Of a DNA stretch of 38,297 bases, positions 2,734-32,346 are shown in pieces (position 1 is the stretch's first letter; every line of letters begins with the position of its first letter). The DNA is from Micavibrio sp. (GTDB lineage Bacteria > Pseudomonadota > Alphaproteobacteria > Micavibrionales > Micavibrionaceae), in NCBI GenBank assembly GCA_019634145.1, contig JAHQVU010000061.1, positions 1-38,297 on the forward strand. Direction: 5' to 3'. The notes beneath the pieces are model-generated. The model worked only from the letters and a program-made list of their open reading frames with translations. It did not search any database and was not told where the DNA came from. Made by a program: the position numbers and the translations under genes.

Positions 2734-4446
2734 TTAGTCCTTATAACTATTATTATCCACAAATTTAAAGATTCCGTCAACATTGCTTAAATCTTTAACT
2801 AATTTTTGATCATTTCCGTAGAGGTCTCGGCCATAAACGATTTGCCCACTGTCATTTATCCAAACAGTATAATAAAGCATATATACTGGTATTGGATCTT
2901 CAAGATAGAGATCACGCATTTCACCCACACCTAACACAGCTTTAAGTTTGTCGTCCCCCCAATTCTTTCGCTCGCTCATAATAAAATTCGCCATCTTTTC
3001 AGGCTCGTACATGCGCACACATCCCGAAGAAAGGGCACGCGAGGCTTTATCAAAATACTGAGGCTTATTGGTGTCATGAAGGTAAATATTATATCTATTG
3101 GGCATAAGGATACGTATGCGCCCAAGGGGATTATGGTCTCCCGGCACCTGTACCATACTGAACTGACTCATTTGAGAGGGCGATGTATTTAGCCAATCCA
3201 CACTTAATGGGTCAATACTTATTGGTGACCCGTCCTGCACCACCATAAGCTCCATGCCTTTTTCAGCCAGATACCCAGGATTTTCTTGCAGCTCTGGTAA
3301 AATATCCTCTTTTTTGATAGTCGGCGGAACGGTCCATGTGGGGTTAAAACGCACCCCGTGAATTTCAGTAATAAAGGTATTTGTAGGCCGCGCAGACTTA
3401 CCGACGATTACCGGCATCTCAAATGCAACACGACCATCTTCTACCGCCCATACAGTGGCAGAAGGGATATTCACGACGACATATTTGGGGGGCTTACTTT
3501 CCGGTACCCAACGTAACCGCTCCAGATTAGCTATTATTTGCTCAATTTTCTGATTACGTCCTATATTAATGAGATCAAGCGTTTGATTGCCCACAATACC
3601 GTCGGGCTTTACTCCATGATAACGCTGAAATTCCACAACAGCAGCAGCCAACTTATCATCATAAAGATACGGATCACCGCCATCTTCAGGGGCACCAACA
3701 CCTAACCTTAACCTAAGCGCTGGCGCATATTCACTTTTATCATATGGCCTTAACAGCCCCTTGAATTTTATAGGTAAGACACCTTCGTACTCCGGCGGCT
3801 CTTCAGCCATAAGCCTTTGTAGCTCTTCCCTGAGCAGCTCATAGGTCTGGCCTTGCGGTGCAATCTGTTCTAATACTCCAGCGCCATCACCCGCGCGCAG
3901 AAGCATGGACAATAAAGACACAGTGCGTAAAGGCTGCTTCCAGAATGTTTTATCTGTATCCATTTTAGCCGGATTAACACGAATACCGCTTAAGTCATGA
4001 CCAATACGAATAAAAGCATCTGTTAGAACAAGCTCTAGGTCTCCCAACTGCTCGGCTTCACGTGCCTCAATGAAATTGTATATCTCATGCGTGTGATAAG
4101 AGAGCGGATTTAACCCATGCGTCCATGTGCTGTTGGCAAACGCAAAAAGTTCACGCCCCGCGGCACTCACCTCATCACCGACAATCCATAAGGGTTCATA
4201 CCCCCGCGCACTATAAAATTCGAGCAATGCCTGACGGTCTTTAAAAAAACCCTGCCCTAAAGTATTAGAGTGAAGAACAGAGTTAATGCGGTGTGCAACT
4301 GGAGTTAATACAATACCTTGCGAGACGTCAGAAGTACCATCCTCCGCACGCGCTGAAATAGGTGCATATGACACAGAGAATGCGCCTATAACGGCACTTA
4401 AAAGCACCAACTTAGCAATTGATTTATTTGTGTTTTTTGCGCTCAT
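2734..4446 (-). CDS. L,D-transpeptidase of the YcbB/LdtD type
   Basis: A 570-residue periplasmic enzyme expected to form 3-3 crosslinks in peptidoglycan. Residues 1-34 are a signal peptide ending A-R-A. A long N-terminal scaffold follows. A peptidoglycan-binding type 1 domain lies around 250-297 (V-V-E-F-Q-R-Y-H-G-V-K-P-D-G-I-V-G). The YkuD catalytic domain spans about 320-490, with H457 in H-D-T and the nucleophile C476 in S-S-G-C-V-R-M. The domain order and size match E. coli YcbB (615 residues) rather than the short ErfK-type enzymes. The DUF882 endopeptidase gene follows at 175 bp, which supports a maker/cutter pair for 3-3 crosslinks. I see no clear Shine-Dalgarno before the ATG; a small GGGTC-GAT-GACCC dyad lies 20 bp upstream. 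Confidence 0.93.
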   Translation of the reverse strand: MSAKNTNKSIAKLVLLSAVIGAFSVSYAPISARAEDGTSDVSQGIVLTPVAHRINSVLHSNTLGQGFFKDRQALLEFYSARGYEPLWIVGDEVSAAGRELFAFANSTWTHGLNPLSYHTHEIYNFIEAREAEQLGDLELVLTDAFIRIGHDLSGIRVNPAKMDTDKTFWKQPLRTVSLLSMLLRAGDGAGVLEQIAPQGQTYELLREELQRLMAEEPPEYEGVLPIKFKGLLRPYDKSEYAPALRLRLGVGAPEDGGDPYLYDDKLAAAVVEFQRYHGVKPDGIVGNQTLDLINIGRNQKIEQIIANLERLRWVPESKPPKYVVVNIPSATVWAVEDGRVAFEMPVIVGKSARPTNTFITEIHGVRFNPTWTVPPTIKKEDILPELQENPGYLAEKGMELMVVQDGSPISIDPLSVDWLNTSPSQMSQFSMVQVPGDHNPLGRIRILMPNRYNIYLHDTNKPQYFDKASRALSSGCVRMYEPEKMANFIMSERKNWGDDKLKAVLGVGEMRDLYLEDPIPVYMLYYTVWINDSGQIVYGRDLYGNDQKLVKDLSNVDGIFKFVDNNSYKD

Positions 4447-13459: not shown

Positions 13460-16400
13460 TTACATAAATCCTTTGATCAAATTCTGAACAGCCTCTTCCG
13501 GCGTTGGCTCTGGTGCTGACTCTTCCACAACAGGCTCTTCAACAACTGCTGGTTCCTGAGCATCTTGAACCGCGTTTTCTTGCGGCGCAACATTATCATT
13601 TGCAGGCTCAGCTAACGCTGGTGCTTGATCAGGAACGATTACAGGCGTGTCAGGCTGAACCTGTTTAGGCGCAGCTGTTCCGCCACCCAAAATACCTTTC
13701 AGCGCACCATCAAGGCCAAGCTTCTTATCAAGCTTATCTCCAAGACCACCGTCTAGAACCTTATTAACTTTACGCTCGATTTTACGCTGCAGATAATCAT
13801 TAAGCAGCCCTTGCGCAAAAGTCTGTGTCGGGTTATCCAGCGAACCACTGATGTTTACCGTAAAAGATGGCACATCATCACGATCTCTAACGCTCATCAC
13901 ATGAGCTGTTTGCAACGTCCATGGTACAAGATAAATCTGTCCGGTCGTCGCAATCGAAGCGCGCGGACCATCCAGCAATAGTTTTTCAATATTCACCACA
14001 CCTTTCTGAACCTTATATGACCCATCAAGCGTCTCAAATGACGTACTTCCACCGGTACCAACACCTTTCCAGAGGTTGAGCGCAGAATCACCGGGTTTTG
14101 CATCTTCTGATAGCGCTCGGACAAAACGCTGCACATCAACACCTTCGATAACTATATCAGAGCCACTAATCGTACCTGCACCATCCAGCGCAGAAATCAA
14201 ACCTTTAATGCTCTGACCGGCTCCAGCCGCACTAACATCCATGCTGATCACACCGCGCCCTTTGAGAAGACGCGAACCGGCAGCCAGTGACGTAACCAAA
14301 GGCTCCATCTGAACTTTCGAGATTGAGGCTTGACCGTCAACATCTAGGCCACTCGTGCCCTTAGCGGGCTTCATCTTTGCCTTGGCGCTAATCGCACCTT
14401 CATATATTCCAGCCGTAAGCTCATTAATACTTAGCACACCATCCTTCATCTCAATGTCGATTGACGGCTTGTTTAACTGCCAACCTTCATAATTGATGGA
14501 ATTGGCCGCAACTTCAAAATCAATATTGGCCGCATTCATCCAGCCACTATCAATAGCCGCACTTGACCACTTATCAGCCCCGCTTTTTTGCGCCTGAGTC
14601 TTCTGTGTGGTTTTCCATGTCAAATCACCTAACTGTAATTTTCCGCTCAAAGCAGGTTTGGACGCAGCCATATCTACAGTAACAATGCCGCTAACATCAA
14701 ATTTTTGACCATCAAAATCACTCGCAGCAATACGGTTCACGACTAACTTTTGATCCGCCATGCGCGCGCCAATTTTTAGGCCGCTGATGGTTTTACCTTG
14801 AAAAATCGCTTTATGAATACTGGTATCAATTTGCAAATCAAATGGCATCTCTCCACCGGATTTCGAAGAAACTCCCGACGCTTCACTACCTTCTCTTGAA
14901 CCGCCCATAACAGCATCAAAATTAACAAAATCCGCTACAACCGCCAATTTTAAAAGAGGCGTTTTAGAGTCAGACTGAGGCGATAACGCACCAGTAATAG
15001 AATAGGCATCATCATCTAGATTGATCACACCCTCTTCCAATGCAATGGTATTTGGTGCGATTTTAACCATCGCATTAAATACACCAGTTTTGGCAGATGA
15101 AACCAACGGCAAACCCGTTTGACCCGTAAAAGCCTTGATCATGTCGGACGGATTGGCGCTCTGACCTTTGGCACGTATAGTTGCAACTGGACTTGTATAG
15201 ATAATTTTATCACCGCCCTTCACGCTTGATTTCTCAGCAAAATTCAATGCGGATGTGACTTTCAACGGCCCTTTACCAGGCATAGTCGCCGCTTCAAAGT
15301 TGAGTGTGAAACCTTTATCTGCATTGGCCAGCTCAACCGTAGCATCATTAAAATTAGCCCCACTATAGATCACCGCAGGGAAGTTAAGCGCCAATTTTAT
15401 CGCGCCCAAAGCCGGTAATTCCAGCGTTTTCGGCAAAGCATTAGTCACCTCAAGCAAAGAGCCTTGCGCCTGATTACCGTCATTTTTCTTGATGAAAAGA
15501 TCAAGGTTTAATGGCTCGGCCGCGGTAAAAGAGCCGTTAACGCTCATTGGAGAGAATTTTACATCCGCGCTACCATTTAGCTTTGTTCCAGCCAAGTTAA
15601 TAACCGCATCCTTTAAAGCTGCACTTTCCGCACCCGCAGAAATAACACCCTCAACTGATGCCTTACCCTTAAAAGGTGCACTCGGCGCATATTCTTCTAA
15701 ACTGCCTATTTCAGCCACAACCTCGCCCTTTACAGATGGTTGATCGCCACCTTGAACCACGCCGGCAAAGTTTAAATCAGCAGCACCCATAACAGCAACC
15801 AGATTGAGTTGCGTTGACATCGTGTCAGGGTCAATCTTGCCGGTCTTGAGATCGACCTCAAGCGGCTGCCCGTTATAGGCTAAATTACCATTTACGGCGA
15901 AAGGTCCGCTCAAATCATCTACCTCAATGTCGAGATTTATTGTCGTAAGCTGGGTCAATTGACCCGGAGCTTGATAGATAAACGCGCCATCTTTGATGGA
16001 GATAGCTTCGAAAGAAACAGCTACATTCGATGTTTTAGAAGACTTTTCATCACTGCCTGCGTCTTTGTTCATCATCGATTCAATTTGCGGGGTCATAAAA
16101 TTATATTGACCTTGCGCACTTTGAACCAGACGAATAACCGGCTCTTCCAGGTTAATCGATGTAACCTCGACATTACCCGAGATAAGAGCAGGAAGGCTAA
16201 CCCGCACATCGAGAAGCTTAAGCGCAAGCAAGGTTTTATCACTCGCGCTAGGGTCTGAAATCTTCACATTTTCGGCATAAAGGCGCGGACTAGGTAAAAG
16301 AGCTAGAGATATATCGCCGTCGATACTGGCCTTAAGTCCTATCATACTCTCGAATTTTGTAAGTGCCTCACCTTTATATTTGTTCCAGTCCATAAAATTG

Positions 16401-16465
16401 GGCACAATCGCTGCCACACCGAGAACAACAACAAAGAATGTGAGGAGAGAAAATATAATTTTCAT
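13460..16465 (-). CDS. AsmA family protein
   Basis: A 1001-residue envelope protein. Residues 3-22 are a single N-terminal membrane anchor, then M-D-W-N-K-Y-K and the AsmA N-terminal block with I-D-G-D-I-S-L-A-L-L-P-S-P and V-K-I-S-D-P. The long middle is beta-rich with repeated D/S-G-x and L-x-G-x-L patterns, fitting the bridge-like groove of the AsmA/TamB-type lipid transport proteins. The C-terminal AsmA_2 region has G-I-S/V-D-V-like repeats around L-K-G-R-G-V-I and ends with a Pro/Glu/Val-rich tail of about 70 residues. Family knowledge links AsmA proteins to phospholipid movement and outer-membrane assembly. It lies 88 bp downstream of the cyclic-nucleotide-binding gene. Confidence 0.92.
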   Translation of the reverse strand: MKIIFSLLTFFVVVLGVAAIVPNFMDWNKYKGEALTKFESMIGLKASIDGDISLALLPSPRLYAENVKISDPSASDKTLLALKLLDVRVSLPALISGNVEVTSINLEEPVIRLVQSAQGQYNFMTPQIESMMNKDAGSDEKSSKTSNVAVSFEAISIKDGAFIYQAPGQLTQLTTINLDIEVDDLSGPFAVNGNLAYNGQPLEVDLKTGKIDPDTMSTQLNLVAVMGAADLNFAGVVQGGDQPSVKGEVVAEIGSLEEYAPSAPFKGKASVEGVISAGAESAALKDAVINLAGTKLNGSADVKFSPMSVNGSFTAAEPLNLDLFIKKNDGNQAQGSLLEVTNALPKTLELPALGAIKLALNFPAVIYSGANFNDATVELANADKGFTLNFEAATMPGKGPLKVTSALNFAEKSSVKGGDKIIYTSPVATIRAKGQSANPSDMIKAFTGQTGLPLVSSAKTGVFNAMVKIAPNTIALEEGVINLDDDAYSITGALSPQSDSKTPLLKLAVVADFVNFDAVMGGSREGSEASGVSSKSGGEMPFDLQIDTSIHKAIFQGKTISGLKIGARMADQKLVVNRIAASDFDGQKFDVSGIVTVDMAASKPALSGKLQLGDLTWKTTQKTQAQKSGADKWSSAAIDSGWMNAANIDFEVAANSINYEGWQLNKPSIDIEMKDGVLSINELTAGIYEGAISAKAKMKPAKGTSGLDVDGQASISKVQMEPLVTSLAAGSRLLKGRGVISMDVSAAGAGQSIKGLISALDGAGTISGSDIVIEGVDVQRFVRALSEDAKPGDSALNLWKGVGTGGSTSFETLDGSYKVQKGVVNIEKLLLDGPRASIATTGQIYLVPWTLQTAHVMSVRDRDDVPSFTVNISGSLDNPTQTFAQGLLNDYLQRKIERKVNKVLDGGLGDKLDKKLGLDGALKGILGGGTAAPKQVQPDTPVIVPDQAPALAEPANDNVAPQENAVQDAQEPAVVEEPVVEESAPEPTPEEAVQNLIKGFM

Positions 16466-16553: not shown

Positions 16554-17090
16554 TTATTTGTCAATTTTATCTTTGAATTGACGTAAAGATTTGAGAAACA
16601 AATCCATATTCGGCACGACATCATTATGAAACATTTGCTGTTCGATTTCCGGAAGCCCGCTCATTATGTTTGTATATATAACGCGCGTAGCAGATATTAG
16701 TTCATCCACTGTATCGGCTTTGTTCAAAATAGCCTTATTAGATATTTGCATCCGTTGAGACATCATCTCGACAACGGATTTAATCATAGGATCGCTTTTT
16801 TTCAGCCTCTGTGAAAAAGCATCACGGGTGATTACAATCAACGTTGTATTTTCTAGAGCTCTTACACTTGCAGTACGGGTTCCATCCATAATAAGCCCCA
16901 TCTCGCCGAAAATCTGGCCCGCATCAAGGCGAGCGATTTCAATATCACCACCTGACTGTGGGTTGCTGGAGTATACCAATACCTTTCCGGTTTGGATCAA
17001 GAAAGCACAATAAGCCTCCTCACCCCTCTCAAAGATTGTATCACCTTTACAGAATAAACGGCGCTCGAGGATTTTAGGAATATCTTTCAT
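16554..17090 (-). CDS. Cyclic-nucleotide-binding-domain protein without a DNA-binding domain
   Basis: A 178-residue protein. Residues 10-110 form a cNMP-binding fold: F-x-x-G-D-T-I-F-E-R-G-E near 14-24, L-I-Q-T-G-K-V-L-V at 31-39, and the phosphate-binding cassette F-G-E-M-G at 61-65 followed by G-T-R-T-A-S-V-R at 70-77, where R72 would contact the cyclic phosphate. The remaining 65 residues are helical and show no helix-turn-helix, so this is not a CRP-type regulator in the usual sense. It may be a sensor partner. It is 27 bp downstream of phaB, so it may belong to the PHB operon. There is no Shine-Dalgarno; a perfect inverted repeat overlaps the start codon. Confidence 0.82.
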   Translation of the reverse strand: MKDIPKILERRLFCKGDTIFERGEEAYCAFLIQTGKVLVYSSNPQSGGDIEIARLDAGQIFGEMGLIMDGTRTASVRALENTTLIVITRDAFSQRLKKSDPMIKSVVEMMSQRMQISNKAILNKADTVDELISATRVIYTNIMSGLPEIEQQMFHNDVVPNMDLFLKSLRQFKDKIDK

Positions 17091-17117: not shown

Positions 17118-17840
17118 CTATACCATATATTGGCCACCATTTATTGATAATGTTGCACCGGTTATATAGGCAGCCTTATCAGAAGCAAGAAATGCAACCA
17201 AATCAGCAATTTCATTGGGCTTACCCATGCGCCCCATTGGGATTTGCTTAACTATACTTTCCAGCACAGCTGAATCCATGGACTCTGTCATATCAGTCTT
17301 GATATAGCCCGGACACACACAATTCACCGTGATACCTTTTCGCGCAGCTTCCAGAGCAAGTGCTTTGGTAAAACCAATCATACCAGCTTTAGCAGCAGAA
17401 TAATTTGCCTGGCCGAGTTGACCTTTTTGTCCGTTGATCGAACTGATATTCACAATACGCCCCGCGCCGCGCTCACGCATACCAGCAATGACACTACGAC
17501 ACATTGTATAACATGAAGTCAGGTTCGTCTCGATCACATCATGCCAGCTATCTTCTGCCATTTTGTGAAGCATACCATCGCGTGTGATGCCGGCATTATT
17601 AACAAGTGTGTGAACAGGTCCAAGCTCATCTTCAATTTTCTTAATCACAGCTTCACACTTAGCCAACTTACCAACGTCAAGCTTGTAAGCTTTTTGCCCT
17701 GTATCCGCTTCAAAGCTTTTTGCTGCCTTATCATTCCCCGCGTATATTGCGGCAACTTTGAAACCATCAGCAATCAATGCTTTCGAAATGTCCAAACCAA
17801 TACCGCGCGTTCCGCCGGTTACAATTGCTACTTTGCTCAT
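17118..17840 (-). CDS. phaB: Acetoacetyl-CoA reductase
   Basis: NADPH-dependent reduction of acetoacetyl-CoA to (R)-3-hydroxybutyryl-CoA, the monomer for PHB. It is a classical short-chain dehydrogenase of 240 residues: T-G-G-T-R-G-I-G at 8-15 for the cofactor, N-N-A-G at 81-84, and the catalytic S134, Y147 and K151. C-P-G-Y-I-K-T-D-M and I-N-G-G-Q-Y-M at the C-terminus are typical of PhaB. FabG would be the alternative, but adjacency to phaA (29 bp) and the PhaB-like C-terminus decide it. AGGAGAT precedes the ATG. It is followed by the cyclic-nucleotide-binding gene after 27 bp. Confidence 0.94.
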   Translation of the reverse strand: MSKVAIVTGGTRGIGLDISKALIADGFKVAAIYAGNDKAAKSFEADTGQKAYKLDVGKLAKCEAVIKKIEDELGPVHTLVNNAGITRDGMLHKMAEDSWHDVIETNLTSCYTMCRSVIAGMRERGAGRIVNISSINGQKGQLGQANYSAAKAGMIGFTKALALEAARKGITVNCVCPGYIKTDMTESMDSAVLESIVKQIPMGRMGKPNEIADLVAFLASDKAAYITGATLSINGGQYMV

Positions 17841-17869: not shown

Positions 17870-19054
17870 TTAATCACGCTCTACACAAAGCGCGATACCC
17901 ATGCCACCGCCAATACATAGCGTGGCCAAACCTTTTTTCGCATCACGGCGCCCCATCTCGTGAAGCAACGTCACAAGAACGCGAGCACCCGAAGCGCCGA
18001 TCGGGTGACCAAGCGCAATCGCGCCGCCATTAACGTTCGTAATATCGGGGTTAAATCCGCACTCTTTTGTTACGCATAATGCCTGCGCCGCAAACGCTTC
18101 ATTGGATTCAATTAAATCAAGATCACTGACTGACCACCCTGCTTTTTTGAGCGCCTTCTTAGATGACGGCACCGGACCAGTCCCCATAATTGTAGGATCA
18201 ACACCAACAGACGCCCAGGACTTCACTGTAGCTAAAGGCTTCAAACCACGCTTTTCGGCATCACTCTTTTTCATCAGCAAGACCGCTGCCGCACCATCAT
18301 TAATACCCGATGCATTTGCTGCAGTCACCGTTCCGTCTTTCTTGAATGCCGGACGCAGTTTACCCAATCCTTCCGCTGTCACACCAGCGCGTGGAAATTC
18401 ATCTTTATCTACAACGATTTCTTCTTTACGAGTCTTAATTGTCACCGGCACAATTTCATCCTTGAACTTACCAGCATTAATTGCGGCTTCGGCTCGGTTT
18501 TGAGATTGCGCAGCTAGAGCATCTTGCTCCTCGCGAGAGATCGAAAACTTCTCTCCGATATTCTCCGCTGTAATACCCATGTGATAATCATTGTATGCAT
18601 CCCAAAGACCATCAACGATCATGGAATCTTTTAGCTCGACATTGCCAAATTTCACACCATCACGCATGTGAATATAATGAGGAGACGCACTCATATTCTC
18701 CTGCCCACCGGCAATAACAATATCAGCATCGCCGCACAAAATAGATTGCATACCAAGTGCAACAGCGCGCAGACCCGAACCACAAACCTGATTGATAGTC
18801 AGCGCAGTTTTATCATCTGGAATGTTGCTAAAAATTGCAGTCTGGCGCGCAGGGTTTTGCCCGGCGCCCGCAGCTAAAACTTGCCCAAGAATAACCTCAT
18901 CAACATCACTCGCACTCACACCTGTCTCGCTCAAAATATTTTCAATAACTGTTGCACCAAGCTTGGGTGCAGGAACAGAAGCAAGCCCGCCACTTAAAAC
19001 GCCAATAGCAGTTCTTTTGGCAGCTACAATTACAACAGGGTCTGATGAAGTCAT
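17870..19054 (-). CDS. phaA: Acetyl-CoA C-acetyltransferase (beta-ketothiolase)
   Basis: Condenses two acetyl-CoA to acetoacetyl-CoA, the first PHB step. The catalytic residues are C91 in [10 protein letters not shown]350 in G-H-P-I-G-A-S-G and C380 in L-C-I-G-G-G-M-G. The length of 394 residues is the biosynthetic thiolase size. AGGAG stands ten bases before the ATG. phaB follows after 29 bp in the same direction. The region upstream is shared with divergent phaR and holds a TTGTGC half-site (on the minus strand, 19088-19083) and an AGCGC/GCGCT dyad at 19092-19108. Confidence 0.96.
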
Positions 19055-19061
19055 GTTTTTA

Positions 19062-19108
19062 ATTCTCCTAAAATATTTATACGCACAATAAAGCGCTATG
19101 AATGCGCT
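19062..19108. promoter_or_regulatory. Candidate control sites between phaA and phaR
   Basis: Within the 174-bp divergent region, GCACAA (19083-19088; TTGTGC on the phaA strand) lies next to a TATAAA-like -10 for phaA. An AGCGC (7-base spacer) GCGCT inverted repeat follows at 19092-19108. On the phaR side TTGTGC recurs at 19163-19168 followed by ATAATA and GCA. PhaR operators described in other alphaproteobacteria contain TGC/GCA half-sites, so these are candidate PhaR sites; this is inference. Confidence 0.4.
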
Positions 19109-19228
19109 GTAAATCCCTAATTGAATCCCTACTTTAAATGAAGGCTTTTAATTCATTGATATTTGTGCATAATAGCAAAAATATCAACGCAACATTTTTA
19201 TGATCAACTGTTTAAAGGCAGGTGCAAA

Positions 19229-19747
19229 ATGACTAAAACCAGACCCGGTAAAGACGAACCAACCGTCATCAAAAAATATGCAAACCGTCGTCTTTATGAC
19301 ACCGGACGCAGCAGCTATATCACCCTAGAAGATTTATGCGAGATGGTAAAAGACGGATATGATTTTATCGTCTATGACGCAAAAAGCGGTGACGATATTA
19401 CCCACTCTGTTTTGACACAAATCATCGTGGATCAGGAATCAAAAGGTGAGACATTACTCCCGACCAGCTTCCTTAAGAACCTGATTGGTTTTTATGGCGA
19501 CAACATTCAAGGGATCGTTCCGAATTATCTCGAGCAAACATTTGATGCGTTCGTTAAAAATCAGGAGCAAATCCGCGAGCATGTAAACAAATCGATAGAA
19601 GGCATGGGAACCGTACCAAATATGTTCCAAATGCCCAATGTTAAAGATCTGGAAGAGCAAACACGCAAGAACATGGAAATGTTCGAAAGCACCATGAAAA
19701 TGTTTATGCCATTCAACATGTATGGCGATGATAAAGACACAAAGTAG
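19229..19747 (+). CDS. phaR: Polyhydroxyalkanoate synthesis repressor PhaR
   Basis: Binds PHB granules and DNA and represses phasin and PHB genes when granules are absent. Residues 12-72 are the PHB accumulation regulatory domain: V-I-K-K-Y-A-N-R-R-L-Y-D-T, S-S-Y-I-T-L-E-D-L and T-Q-I-I-V-D-Q-E-S are hallmark strings. The rest is helical, Met/Phe/Asn-rich, as in alphaproteobacterial PhaR. I choose the ATG at 19229 (172 residues) because the conserved block begins 12 residues later and AAAGGCAGG lies just upstream; an in-frame ATG at 19163 would add an unlikely 22-residue extension. It is divergent from phaA-phaB, fitting control of that operon. Confidence 0.95.
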   Translation: MTKTRPGKDEPTVIKKYANRRLYDTGRSSYITLEDLCEMVKDGYDFIVYDAKSGDDITHSVLTQIIVDQESKGETLLPTSFLKNLIGFYGDNIQGIVPNYLEQTFDAFVKNQEQIREHVNKSIEGMGTVPNMFQMPNVKDLEEQTRKNMEMFESTMKMFMPFNMYGDDKDTK

Positions 19748-29715: not shown

Positions 29716-31641
29716 TCAATGGAGCGATTCATCGCTATCTGAATAACCGACCACAGGTTCACCTGCCCCCCCACTAGCAACCAACCGACTACTTGGAAAA
29801 ACCAATGTTGCCGTAGTCCCAATGCCCTTTTGCGAAAACAAATCAAATTCACCGCCATGCAATCGAACCAGCGATGCAACGAGTGTCAAACCAAGACCAG
29901 CACCTGAGCCACTGCGGTTAAATTCACTATTTGCTTGCCCAAATGGCATCAATGCTTTTTTGATACCCTCTGCATCCAAACCAACGCCCGTATCACTAAC
30001 CGATAGGTTCAGCGCGCCGTCATTATCAATGAGGTATGATATAGTTATACGCCCATCATCCGGCGTAAATTTGACGGCATTAGATAGCAGGTTCATCAAA
30101 ATCTGCTTAAGCGCCAATTCTTCAGCCACCAATTCAGGCGCCCCGTCCATTGATACGGTTACAGTAAGGGCGTTATTTCTGATTTTATGCTCCATAAGGC
30201 CAAGGCAATCACGCACCACCCCCTTAACATCCACAACCTCTTCATTCAATTGCCGCTCACCCGCCTCGATCTTGGAGATATCCAGAATTTCATTGATAAT
30301 TCGAAGCAAACCCTGCCCGCTTTCATAAATATCCTTGGCATACTCCCAGTATGCTTTCTGCCCGACAGGCCCAAAAACTTCATTCTTAATCATCTCTGAA
30401 AATCCAATGATAGAATTAAGCGGCGTACGCAATTCGTGGCTCATGTTGGACAAAAATTCTGATTTTGCGCGGTTAGCAAGGTCTGATTGAATTTTCGCCT
30501 CACGAATATTAATTTCAGATTCCTTACGCTCGGTAATATCTTCCAAACTCCCCTCTACAAAAAGAACGCGCCCCGCATCATCACGAACCGCACGGGCAGT
30601 CTCATTGACCCAAATAACCTTGCCATCGCGCCTGTAGACCTGAACCTCTTGCTGAAAATTACGGTTATGACTTTCTAGCAGCTTTATATATTTGCCACGC
30701 TCATCCGAATCCACATAAATGCTCACATTCGCATTTTTTACTTCCCTCAATAACTGCTCGGGAGAAGAAAAGCCTAATATTCTTGCTAAAGCTGGGTTTG
30801 CACTTAAATAAAGCCCCTCTGGAGTAAGCTGATAAATTCCACCAGCTGCGTTTTGAACAATATTGCGATACTTTTTCTCAGCCTCTGCTAAGGCACGCTC
30901 CGCGCGTCGACGCTCTTCTATATCTGTAATCGTACCCGCTACGTGAGGAGAGGCGTCCTTATCGCTATAAACCATGGATAAAGACAACTCTACGGCACCG
31001 AAAGTACCATCACTTCTCCTAATTTGCGTAAAGCCTCGATAGCGGTCCTTCCGTCCTTTAATGATGTCTGAATATTCTTGGCGGATCTCCTGCTGGTCAT
31101 CTTGATGTAAAATACTGAACAATGACTGCCCAAGGGTTTGCTCAATCTCAAACCCGCTAAGGTTTTGCCAGGCGTTATTAAGAAATATAATGCAGCCGCT
31201 CTCGTCAGCCTCAAAGATTATGTCTTTTATAGAGTTAATAATATCAAAATTCTTACGACGGGAGCCCTGTAAAACATCGTTGTTCTTTTTTAGGCCTTCC
31301 ATCTCTTCACGTAAAACACGGTTCTGAATACCCATGGCTTCAATCTTACGACGCAATTTTCGCTGCATATGCGCCCCCGATTTTACAGCTAGTATAAGGA
31401 GTGCACACAAGAGTAATCCAACAAAAACCAGACTTAAGAATACATTCTCACTGCTGATATATTTCAGAATTTGAGGCATCAGAACATATACCCCAACCAA
31501 AACAAACATACCAAATATGATAAGTATAATTGGCAGCTGCCACTGTGAACGGCTGCGGCCGAGCCTTAAACCCCTATTACTACTAATAGATGACTTGACC
31601 TTATTGGCCTCTTTGGCAACTTCAACATGTTCGAACCCCAT
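29716..31641 (-). CDS. Membrane PAS-domain sensor histidine kinase
   Basis: A 641-residue kinase. Two membrane segments lie at about 35-58 and 67-88, with little between them, so sensing is probably cytosolic. A coiled stretch leads to two PAS domains (about 132-245 and 257-373), the second ending in the PAC-type D-I-T-E-R-K. The HisKA domain carries H402 in M-S-H-E-L-R-T-P-L-N. The ATPase domain has N-L-L-S-N-A-V-K-F-T-P, D-T-G-V-G-L and G-A-G-L-G-L. No receiver or Hpt domain is fused, so a separate response regulator is required and none is beside it. It is monocistronic by layout. A CACATT-AG-AATGTG dyad lies about 33 bp upstream. Confidence 0.9.
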   Translation of the reverse strand: MGFEHVEVAKEANKVKSSISSNRGLRLGRSRSQWQLPIILIIFGMFVLVGVYVLMPQILKYISSENVFLSLVFVGLLLCALLILAVKSGAHMQRKLRRKIEAMGIQNRVLREEMEGLKKNNDVLQGSRRKNFDIINSIKDIIFEADESGCIIFLNNAWQNLSGFEIEQTLGQSLFSILHQDDQQEIRQEYSDIIKGRKDRYRGFTQIRRSDGTFGAVELSLSMVYSDKDASPHVAGTITDIEERRRAERALAEAEKKYRNIVQNAAGGIYQLTPEGLYLSANPALARILGFSSPEQLLREVKNANVSIYVDSDERGKYIKLLESHNRNFQQEVQVYRRDGKVIWVNETARAVRDDAGRVLFVEGSLEDITERKESEINIREAKIQSDLANRAKSEFLSNMSHELRTPLNSIIGFSEMIKNEVFGPVGQKAYWEYAKDIYESGQGLLRIINEILDISKIEAGERQLNEEVVDVKGVVRDCLGLMEHKIRNNALTVTVSMDGAPELVAEELALKQILMNLLSNAVKFTPDDGRITISYLIDNDGALNLSVSDTGVGLDAEGIKKALMPFGQANSEFNRSGSGAGLGLTLVASLVRLHGGEFDLFSQKGIGTTATLVFPSSRLVASGGAGEPVVGYSDSDESLH

Positions 31642-31687: not shown

Positions 31688-31786
31688 CCCCCACACAGAC
31701 AAAAATGCCTGAAAGCTATTAACAAGTTACTAATATTAAGCATTTTATTCAAATAATTCAAAATAGGATATTTTTGAGCAATAAAA

Positions 31787-31799
31787 TTGTGCAGCACAA
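31787..31799. promoter_or_regulatory. Palindrome TTGTGC-A-GCACAA upstream of the phasin gene
   Basis: Exact 6-bp arms around one base, 95 bp upstream of the phasin ATG, in an AT-rich promoter region. The same TTGTGC half-site occurs in the phaA and phaR upstream regions. PhaR is known to repress phasin genes in related bacteria, so a PhaR operator is the natural guess. Confidence 0.5.
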
Positions 31800-31893
31800 A
31801 AAACTCCCTCTTGCCAAGCCCCAGCCCATAAACTAATATCCTGAAAATTCCATACAATATATTTTATGCAACCAACGCAAGGAAACGAAAACT

Positions 31894-32346
31894 ATGGCCG
31901 CACAAACGACTTCTTTTACAGACTTTTTCCAGAACAATAATTTCTCTAAATTCTTTGAAAAGTACCAGACTTCAGCGGTAGATATGCAATCTTTTCTCGA
32001 AACAAACAGAAGGAACTTTCTTGCCCTTTCCGAGCTTTCCCAAACTGCATTTGAAAACTTTCAGGATATAGCCACACGTCACAGCGAGATTGTTTCTCAA
32101 ATGATGGAAGATAACTCCGCACTCGCTAAAGAGTTAATGAGTGAAGGCACGCCGGAAGAAAAAATCGCTAAAAACACCGACATAATTAAAAAAATCTACG
32201 AGAGAAACATGAAAAGCATAAAAGAACTCTCGAAGGCAATCGATTCCTCCAACGAAAAAACAGGCGCGATCATAAATCGCCGCATCACGTCCAGCCTGAG
32301 CGAAATCAAATCTTCTATGGAAAAAACTACTAAAAAAGCTGCCTAA
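31894..32346 (+). CDS. Phasin family protein
   Basis: A 150-residue helical protein, rich in Ser, Glu, Lys and Asn, with F-F-x-x-N-N-F-S-K-F-F at the N-terminus, then long amphipathic helices (L-E-T-N-R-R-N-F-L-A-L-S-E-L; A-F-E-N-F-Q-D-I-A). The pattern T-N-R-R/K-N-F-x-A-L-x-E-x-x-Q is the common phasin signature. It is expected to coat PHB granules and control their size. It stands alone between the two sensor kinase genes, with AAGGAA upstream of the ATG and a terminator after it. A TTGTGC palindrome upstream may be its PhaR operator. Confidence 0.88.
   Translation: MAAQTTSFTDFFQNNNFSKFFEKYQTSAVDMQSFLETNRRNFLALSELSQTAFENFQDIATRHSEIVSQMMEDNSALAKELMSEGTPEEKIAKNTDIIKKIYERNMKSIKELSKAIDSSNEKTGAIINRRITSSLSEIKSSMEKTTKKAA

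Follow-up and report, generated by a model that had tools for sequence, protein, structure and literature searches.

The phasin and phaR loci of the window

The stretch of DNA analysed here, which we call the window, comprises 38,297 nt of a Micavibrio draft genome (1,866,965 bases, or 1.87 Mb; 92% complete) and carries a phasin gene together with phaR and phaAB-like genes. An earlier, sequence-only reading of this DNA had named a phasin gene, phaA and phaR; the gene products were upheld as a phasin, PhaR, an acetoacetyl-CoA reductase and a thiolase. The features that concern us are the following:

17118..17840, minus strand: phaB-like acetoacetyl-CoA reductase gene (TIGR01829)
17870..19054, minus strand: phaA-like acetyl-CoA acetyltransferase (thiolase) gene
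19083..19088, minus strand: TTGTGC on the phaA side, a possible weak half-site
19163..19173, plus strand: TTGTGCATAAT, a conserved element before phaR in which a PhaR-type half-site runs into a -10-like CATAAT
19229..19747, plus strand: phaR (TIGR01848 above cut-off; PF07879 and PF05233 domains)
31784..31804, plus strand: canonical-register reading TTGTGCA-G-CACAAAA, with one core mismatch at the inner G (GCA to ACA); local matrix score 16.1
31787..31799, no strand: TTGTGC-A-GCACAA palindrome, candidate PhaR operator with an inner spacer of 1 nt instead of 3 nt
31811..31816, plus strand: predicted phasin promoter -35, TTGCCA (consensus match only)
31834..31839, plus strand: predicted phasin promoter -10, TAATAT, after a 17-nt spacer (consensus match only)
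31894..32346, plus strand: phasin gene, the presumed target (TIGR01841, PF09361)

Besides phaR, no other PhaR gene was found in the draft genome. The ATG start of phaR is favoured over a TTG at 19163, M1 being conserved, and the sequence KKYANRRLY of the N-terminal domain is present at 64 of 64 PhaR loci; the genome encodes, then, a PhaR with a conserved N-terminal DNA-binding domain. A sequence search for a solved PhaR structure gave no significant match. Just downstream of phaB and on the same strand lies the gene of a 178-aa protein (16554-17090, minus) whose sole Pfam domain is a cyclic-nucleotide-binding domain, and which is perhaps part of a phaAB operon.

The palindrome itself, TTGTGCAGCACAA, has arms of 6 bp, and no more, on either side of a single central A and lies between a divergent sensor (histidine) kinase gene (29716-31641, minus) and the phasin gene, whose ATG follows it by 94 nt, so that the perfect 13-bp palindrome described earlier is indeed present before the phasin. 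The genome-wide count that had been proposed returns one exact copy of the 13-mer in the draft genome, although at 92% completeness the absence of further copies is no proof. The warning that a lone 6-mer is uninformative was also sound, as TTGTGC occurs 27 times in the window against 29.9 expected, which is chance level. The window contains 12 perfect inverted repeats with 6-bp arms and a 1-nt spacer, and palindromicity alone is for this reason weak evidence that needs other support. The pairing of half-sites fares better. When the letters of the 252-bp intergenic region are shuffled, a TTGTGC-N0-6-GCAMAA pair arises in only 1 of 20,000 trials, and the pair therefore exceeds chance, allowing for its post hoc choice. 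What is notable about the palindrome is the identity of its half-site and its position, rather than its symmetry. Arms of 6 bp with a 1-nt loop are unable to form a hairpin, and a search for an RNA element at the palindrome gave no Rfam match.

PhaR-type motifs at phasin promoters of the order

The standard PhaR operators in the literature consulted have the core TGC-N3-GCA: for S. meliloti (AniA), with the consensus WNWD2NYGCRNYGCRNH2WNW (PMC12542648), for B. diazoefficiens, with TGCRNYGCASMA (PMC6201568), and for R. eutropha, with YTKNTGCRNYGCANMAR (PMC12849132). Beside NGCN(3)GC[GA]N(3), a later B. diazoefficiens paper describes a 'long PhaR box' of 22 nt that differs from it, and suggests that alternative sites may have longer or shorter gaps (PMC10888616). 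PhaR binds phasin promoters in S. meliloti (PMC12542648) and B. diazoefficiens (PMC6201568) and represses phaP1 in R. eutropha (PMC12849132). Judged by title and the start of the abstract, none of the four articles found to name both Micavibrio and polyhydroxybutyrate deals with this subject.

How the motif is used closer to the window was assessed in 103 phasin upstreams from its own genome and its order, hand-chosen among the phasin matches listed; these are related and unweighted sequences, several of them from one genus, and the shuffles against which they were compared ignore kinship. The relatives are Micavibrio sp. and mostly alphaproteobacterial metagenome-assembled genomes. A count of TGC-Nk-GCA with k from 0 to 12, compared with 300 dinucleotide-shuffled versions, singled out three spacings, each reached in 0 of 300 shuffles: k = 3 with 91 matches (7.7 expected), k = 1 with 23 (7.5 expected) and k = 6 with 18 (7.1 expected). 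All other values of k were at or below expectation. Some of the minor matches overlap k = 3 sites (for k = 1, 4 of 23; for k = 6, 6 of 18); the isolated remainder is 19 for k = 1 (18 without the window), against 7.6 expected and 0 of 300 shuffles, and 12 for k = 6, against 6.8 expected and 19 of 300 shuffles, an excess less clear than that of k = 1. The isolated TGC-N1-GCA matches consist in part of TGCAGCA at 25-40 bp before the start codon, a sequence that is also an arm of some canonical, N3-type sites. From 83 distinct sites the consensus of the order is TTKTGCANTGCAMAA.

At least one k = 3 site is present in 57 of the 103 upstreams, and the strict motif is missing from the other 46; not every phasin promoter has it. 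Both the 103 and the 46 include a second phasin of the window's own genome (L141, contig C60), whose start was placed too far downstream and which really carries two canonical sites (3910-3930 and 3966-3986; local scores 25.3 and 22.6) that lie 56 bp apart and bracket a TTGACA. This second phasin has a lysine-rich N-terminus, and paired sites in a similar arrangement are seen again elsewhere in the order. With it left out, the 45 upstreams that lack TGC-N3-GCA are enriched in single half-sites, none of the counts being reached in 300 shuffles and each including one contributed by the window: TTGTGC 10 times (2.7 expected), GCACAA 12 times (3.8 expected) and TTGTGCA 7 times (0.84 expected).

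The layout of these promoters was measured with one unsupervised rule that takes the best -35/-10 pair of each upstream, and the same rule was applied to the window. Among the 90 canonical sites with a promoter call, 33 lie at -17 to -12 from the start of the -35 and 23 at +40 to +49, while 34 fall outside both slots, in part because the rule picked another promoter. Before the window's phasin, TTGCCA-N17-TAATAT is the sole promoter called by the promoter tool (shuffles average 1.8), and the centre of the palindrome lies 18 nt before the start of this predicted -35, at position -18, next to the predicted core promoter and adjoining the upstream operator slot of 12-17 nt. A second, promoter-proximal PhaR-type site was not found in the window.

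Set beside the operators known elsewhere, as far as the cited sources describe them, the window's site shares with that of S. meliloti the half-site TTGTGC/GCACAA, the AT-rich arms and the place at a phasin promoter (the phaP1 site there is TTATTGTGCACTGCACAAATT), but the inner spacer is 3 nt there and 1 nt here, and S. meliloti phaP1 and phaP2 each have two sites flanking the -35 where the window's phasin has one. At B. diazoefficiens phaP1 a footprinted site lies 6 bp upstream of the -35, much as in the window (PMC6201568), though with the canonical 3-nt spacer and as one of two sites. At R. eutropha phaP1 PhaR has one site beside the -35 and another around the transcription start, which resembles the two-slot layout of the order (PMC12849132); unlike the window, R. 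eutropha has the canonical spacer and several sites per promoter.

The exact palindrome is not conserved at orthologous promoters: it occurs at none of the five phasins of 52-54% identity (G012, G003, G002, G034 and G030). Among these, G030 has an N3 site, G003 has TGC-N1-GCA with different arms, G012 has a lone TTGTGC and G002 has TTGTGCATTGCGGCAC. Enrichment at PHB promoters had been put forward earlier as a check on the idea of a shared operator, and the outcome depends on which sequence is counted. The N3 motif is strongly enriched at phasins, as described above, and in its full-arm form, TTGTGC-N3-GCACAA, it occurs 71 times in 142 genomes against 17 for the reversed control, with no copy in the window's own genome; the exact TTGTGC-N1-GCACAA, in contrast, shows no enrichment in the same 142 genomes (14 against 16 for the reversed control). 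As a marker of an order-wide regulon the exact N1 palindrome was rejected on this count. Of its 13 other copies 11 are inside ORFs, and the two outside adjoin genes that, by eye from their translations, are aldehyde-dehydrogenase-like and dihydrolipoamide-dehydrogenase-like, with no evident PHB link.

How the palindrome may be read

TTGTGC and GCACAA both fit the local consensus half-site TTKTGC, with TGC/GCA and TTG/CAA in place, and the arms are one of the two commonest forms of the PhaR half-site in the order. The inner spacing departs from TGC-N3-GCA, the half-sites being 2 bp closer together. Read in the canonical register, the site presents one perfect half (TTGTGCA) and one half with a single core mismatch (CACAAAA), and a local matrix built from phasin sites only gives it 16.1, the second-highest score in the 38 kb window. 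Such a score is reached at a rate of 0.7% per 250 bp in real DNA (17 in 609 kb) and in 7 of 20,000 shuffles of the intergenic region. The highest score, 16.9, belongs to 13575-13595, inside a 1001-aa ORF (13460-16465), and that match is probably due to chance. A matrix of 26 published S. meliloti sites, all belonging to promoters rated efficient or weak, with 2 of the 4 listed exoH sites and two divergent duplicates left out, likewise places the window's site second, at 12.4. Shortening the matrix by 2 bp, and so tailoring it to this very geometry, makes the palindrome the clear best in the window (19.75; next 14.4).

We consider it reasonably likely that the PhaR encoded at 19229-19747 has an operator in this palindrome, which the protein would most probably recognise in the canonical register. 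This is the best reading of the site because its half-site is among the two commonest in the order and because it adjoins the upstream slot; it is probably a PhaR operator of atypical geometry within a known kind of switch. Of the earlier proposal of a candidate PhaR operator, the half-site and the position stand; the spacing is 2 bp short and the exact palindrome is unenriched in 142 genomes. If the reading is right, PhaR that is free for want of polymer would bind just upstream of the phasin -35 and keep phasin transcription low, and once granules form it would be drawn to the polymer and the phasin would be made, steps that we infer here and that have been published for other PhaR proteins. 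With one perfect and one mismatched half, the site would be weaker than either of the textbook operators before the second phasin.

A true spacing variant, in which the PhaR dimer would use both perfect half-sites at 1-nt spacing and hence 2 bp (about 70 degrees) closer together, is a reading we hold to be rather doubtful. Both arms are of one of the order's two commonest forms, the shortened and fitted matrix ranks the site first, and a parallel exists in another phasin upstream (L107, G025), which has TTGTGC-A-GCAAAA; sites with longer or shorter gaps have, as noted, been proposed in B. diazoefficiens (PMC10888616). The isolated N1 excess at phasins favours this variant over the canonical-register reading and keeps it alive, but most of the isolated N1 matches are weak-armed, 3 of the 19 overlap a looser YGCRNYGCR site, and the TGCAGCA that makes up part of them can also be an arm of a canonical site. 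Across the order, moreover, the full-arm N3 form is strongly enriched and the N1 form is not. Since single half-sites are enriched at phasins without the strict motif, sites with one good half seem usual there, and for this reason we prefer such a site to a new spacing class. It is unlikely that the PhaR of this lineage accepts a TGC-N1-GCA compressed by 2 bp and that the repression strengths of the genome's two phasins differ by operator spacing (an N3 pair at the second phasin, a single N1 at the window's phasin).

Two further explanations dispense with PhaR. The perfect symmetry around a single base and the divergent intergenic region would suit another transcription factor that recognises an odd-centred 13-bp palindrome, for instance a LysR-type T-N11-A site, and that controls the phasin or else the histidine kinase gene divergent from it (29716-31641), and a cyclic-nucleotide-binding protein and two kinases are encoded in the window; yet the half-sites coincide with that of PhaR, the draft genome has a single exact copy and the nearest phasins do not share it, and we regard another factor as very improbable. 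That the sequence has no function, being either a canonical site that has lost 2 bp or a random palindrome, accords with the 12 perfect spacer-1 palindromes in the window, with the lack of conservation at the nearest phasins and with the control-level frequency of the exact form in the order. The rarity of the half-site pair in shuffles and its position adjoining the operator slot argue against chance or decay, which we think improbable.

PhaR-type sequences before other genes

The earlier reading had pointed out that the half-site is shared with the upstream regions of phaA and phaR, and TTGTGC does lie there, at 19083-19088 (minus) and 19163-19168 (plus) respectively. This sharing stands up better than the count of the 6-mer would lead one to expect. 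The copy before phaR is kept in 31 of 35 loci, and TGTGCATAAT is found there in 23 of the 35. The element, TTGTGCATAAT in the window, is thus conserved throughout the order (loci compared: the window, L027-L057, L066, L069 and L090), and in several loci a GCAGCAAA-like half-site comes after it. This upstream element could take part in autoregulation or be a plain promoter. In S. meliloti, binding of PhaR to the phaR/phbAB region was seen only with the highest protein level assayed (PMC12542648).

A divergent phaA neighbours phaR in eight regions, the window included; in 25 other loci phaA is 1.2-1.5 kb from phaR, and a further 2 yielded no phaA. Four of the 8 divergent regions (L028, L031, L032 and the window) have a phaA-directed TTGTGC at most 56 nt from the phaA start, at distances that differ among the regions; shuffles give 0.29 on average (0 of 2000 reach this count; the genomes are related). 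The phaR-phaA gap of the window has no canonical site, the best local score being 1.0, before phaR, or 3.9 with the S. meliloti matrix. Of the 7 relatives in which the two genes diverge in this way, 5 (L028-L032) do have TGC-N3-GCA in the gap, with local scores of 11.6 to 20.6. This N3 site is some 90-105 bp before phaR and is missing from the window, L027 and L038.

Beyond the window, scoring of its own genome covered only the 15 places with at most one mismatch. Canonical-type sites lie before pdhA (local score 21.4; C25:16090, L181), before gltA (23.6; C25:33492, L186) and before an acetate-CoA ligase gene (20.1; C70:24663, L193). A site scoring at least 16 precedes pdhA in 11 of the 24 genomes scored and gltA in 6 of the 28, the own genome being included in both and the background being 0.7% per 250 bp; for pdhA 24 of 29 loci were scored, 5 having no start found, and for gltA 28 of 28, with 2 more, fragmentary loci left out. 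The tests at pdhA and gltA are independent of the local matrix, which was built from phasin sites only. They fit what the available parts of earlier reports describe, namely that PhaR shifts the pdhA promoter in B. diazoefficiens (PMC6201568), a gene that in the present order also has PhaR-type sites, and that S. meliloti gltA has predicted PhaR sites (PMC12542648). The sequences at pdhA, gltA and the acetate-CoA ligase gene suggest that PhaR may control the supply and use of acetyl-CoA. Polymer storage in Micavibrio-related bacteria would be controlled by the same PhaR circuit as in rhizobia, its motif and layout being measurable, and pdhA and gltA are likely targets through which storage would be tied to acetyl-CoA flux. 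The palindrome is a minor and atypical instance of this control. The own genome also has a site scoring 22.6 before a 415-aa ORF without an NCBIfam match (C61:3656, L192), and one scoring 23.6 that falls within an ORF whose matches to electron-transfer-flavoprotein alpha models are below cut-off.
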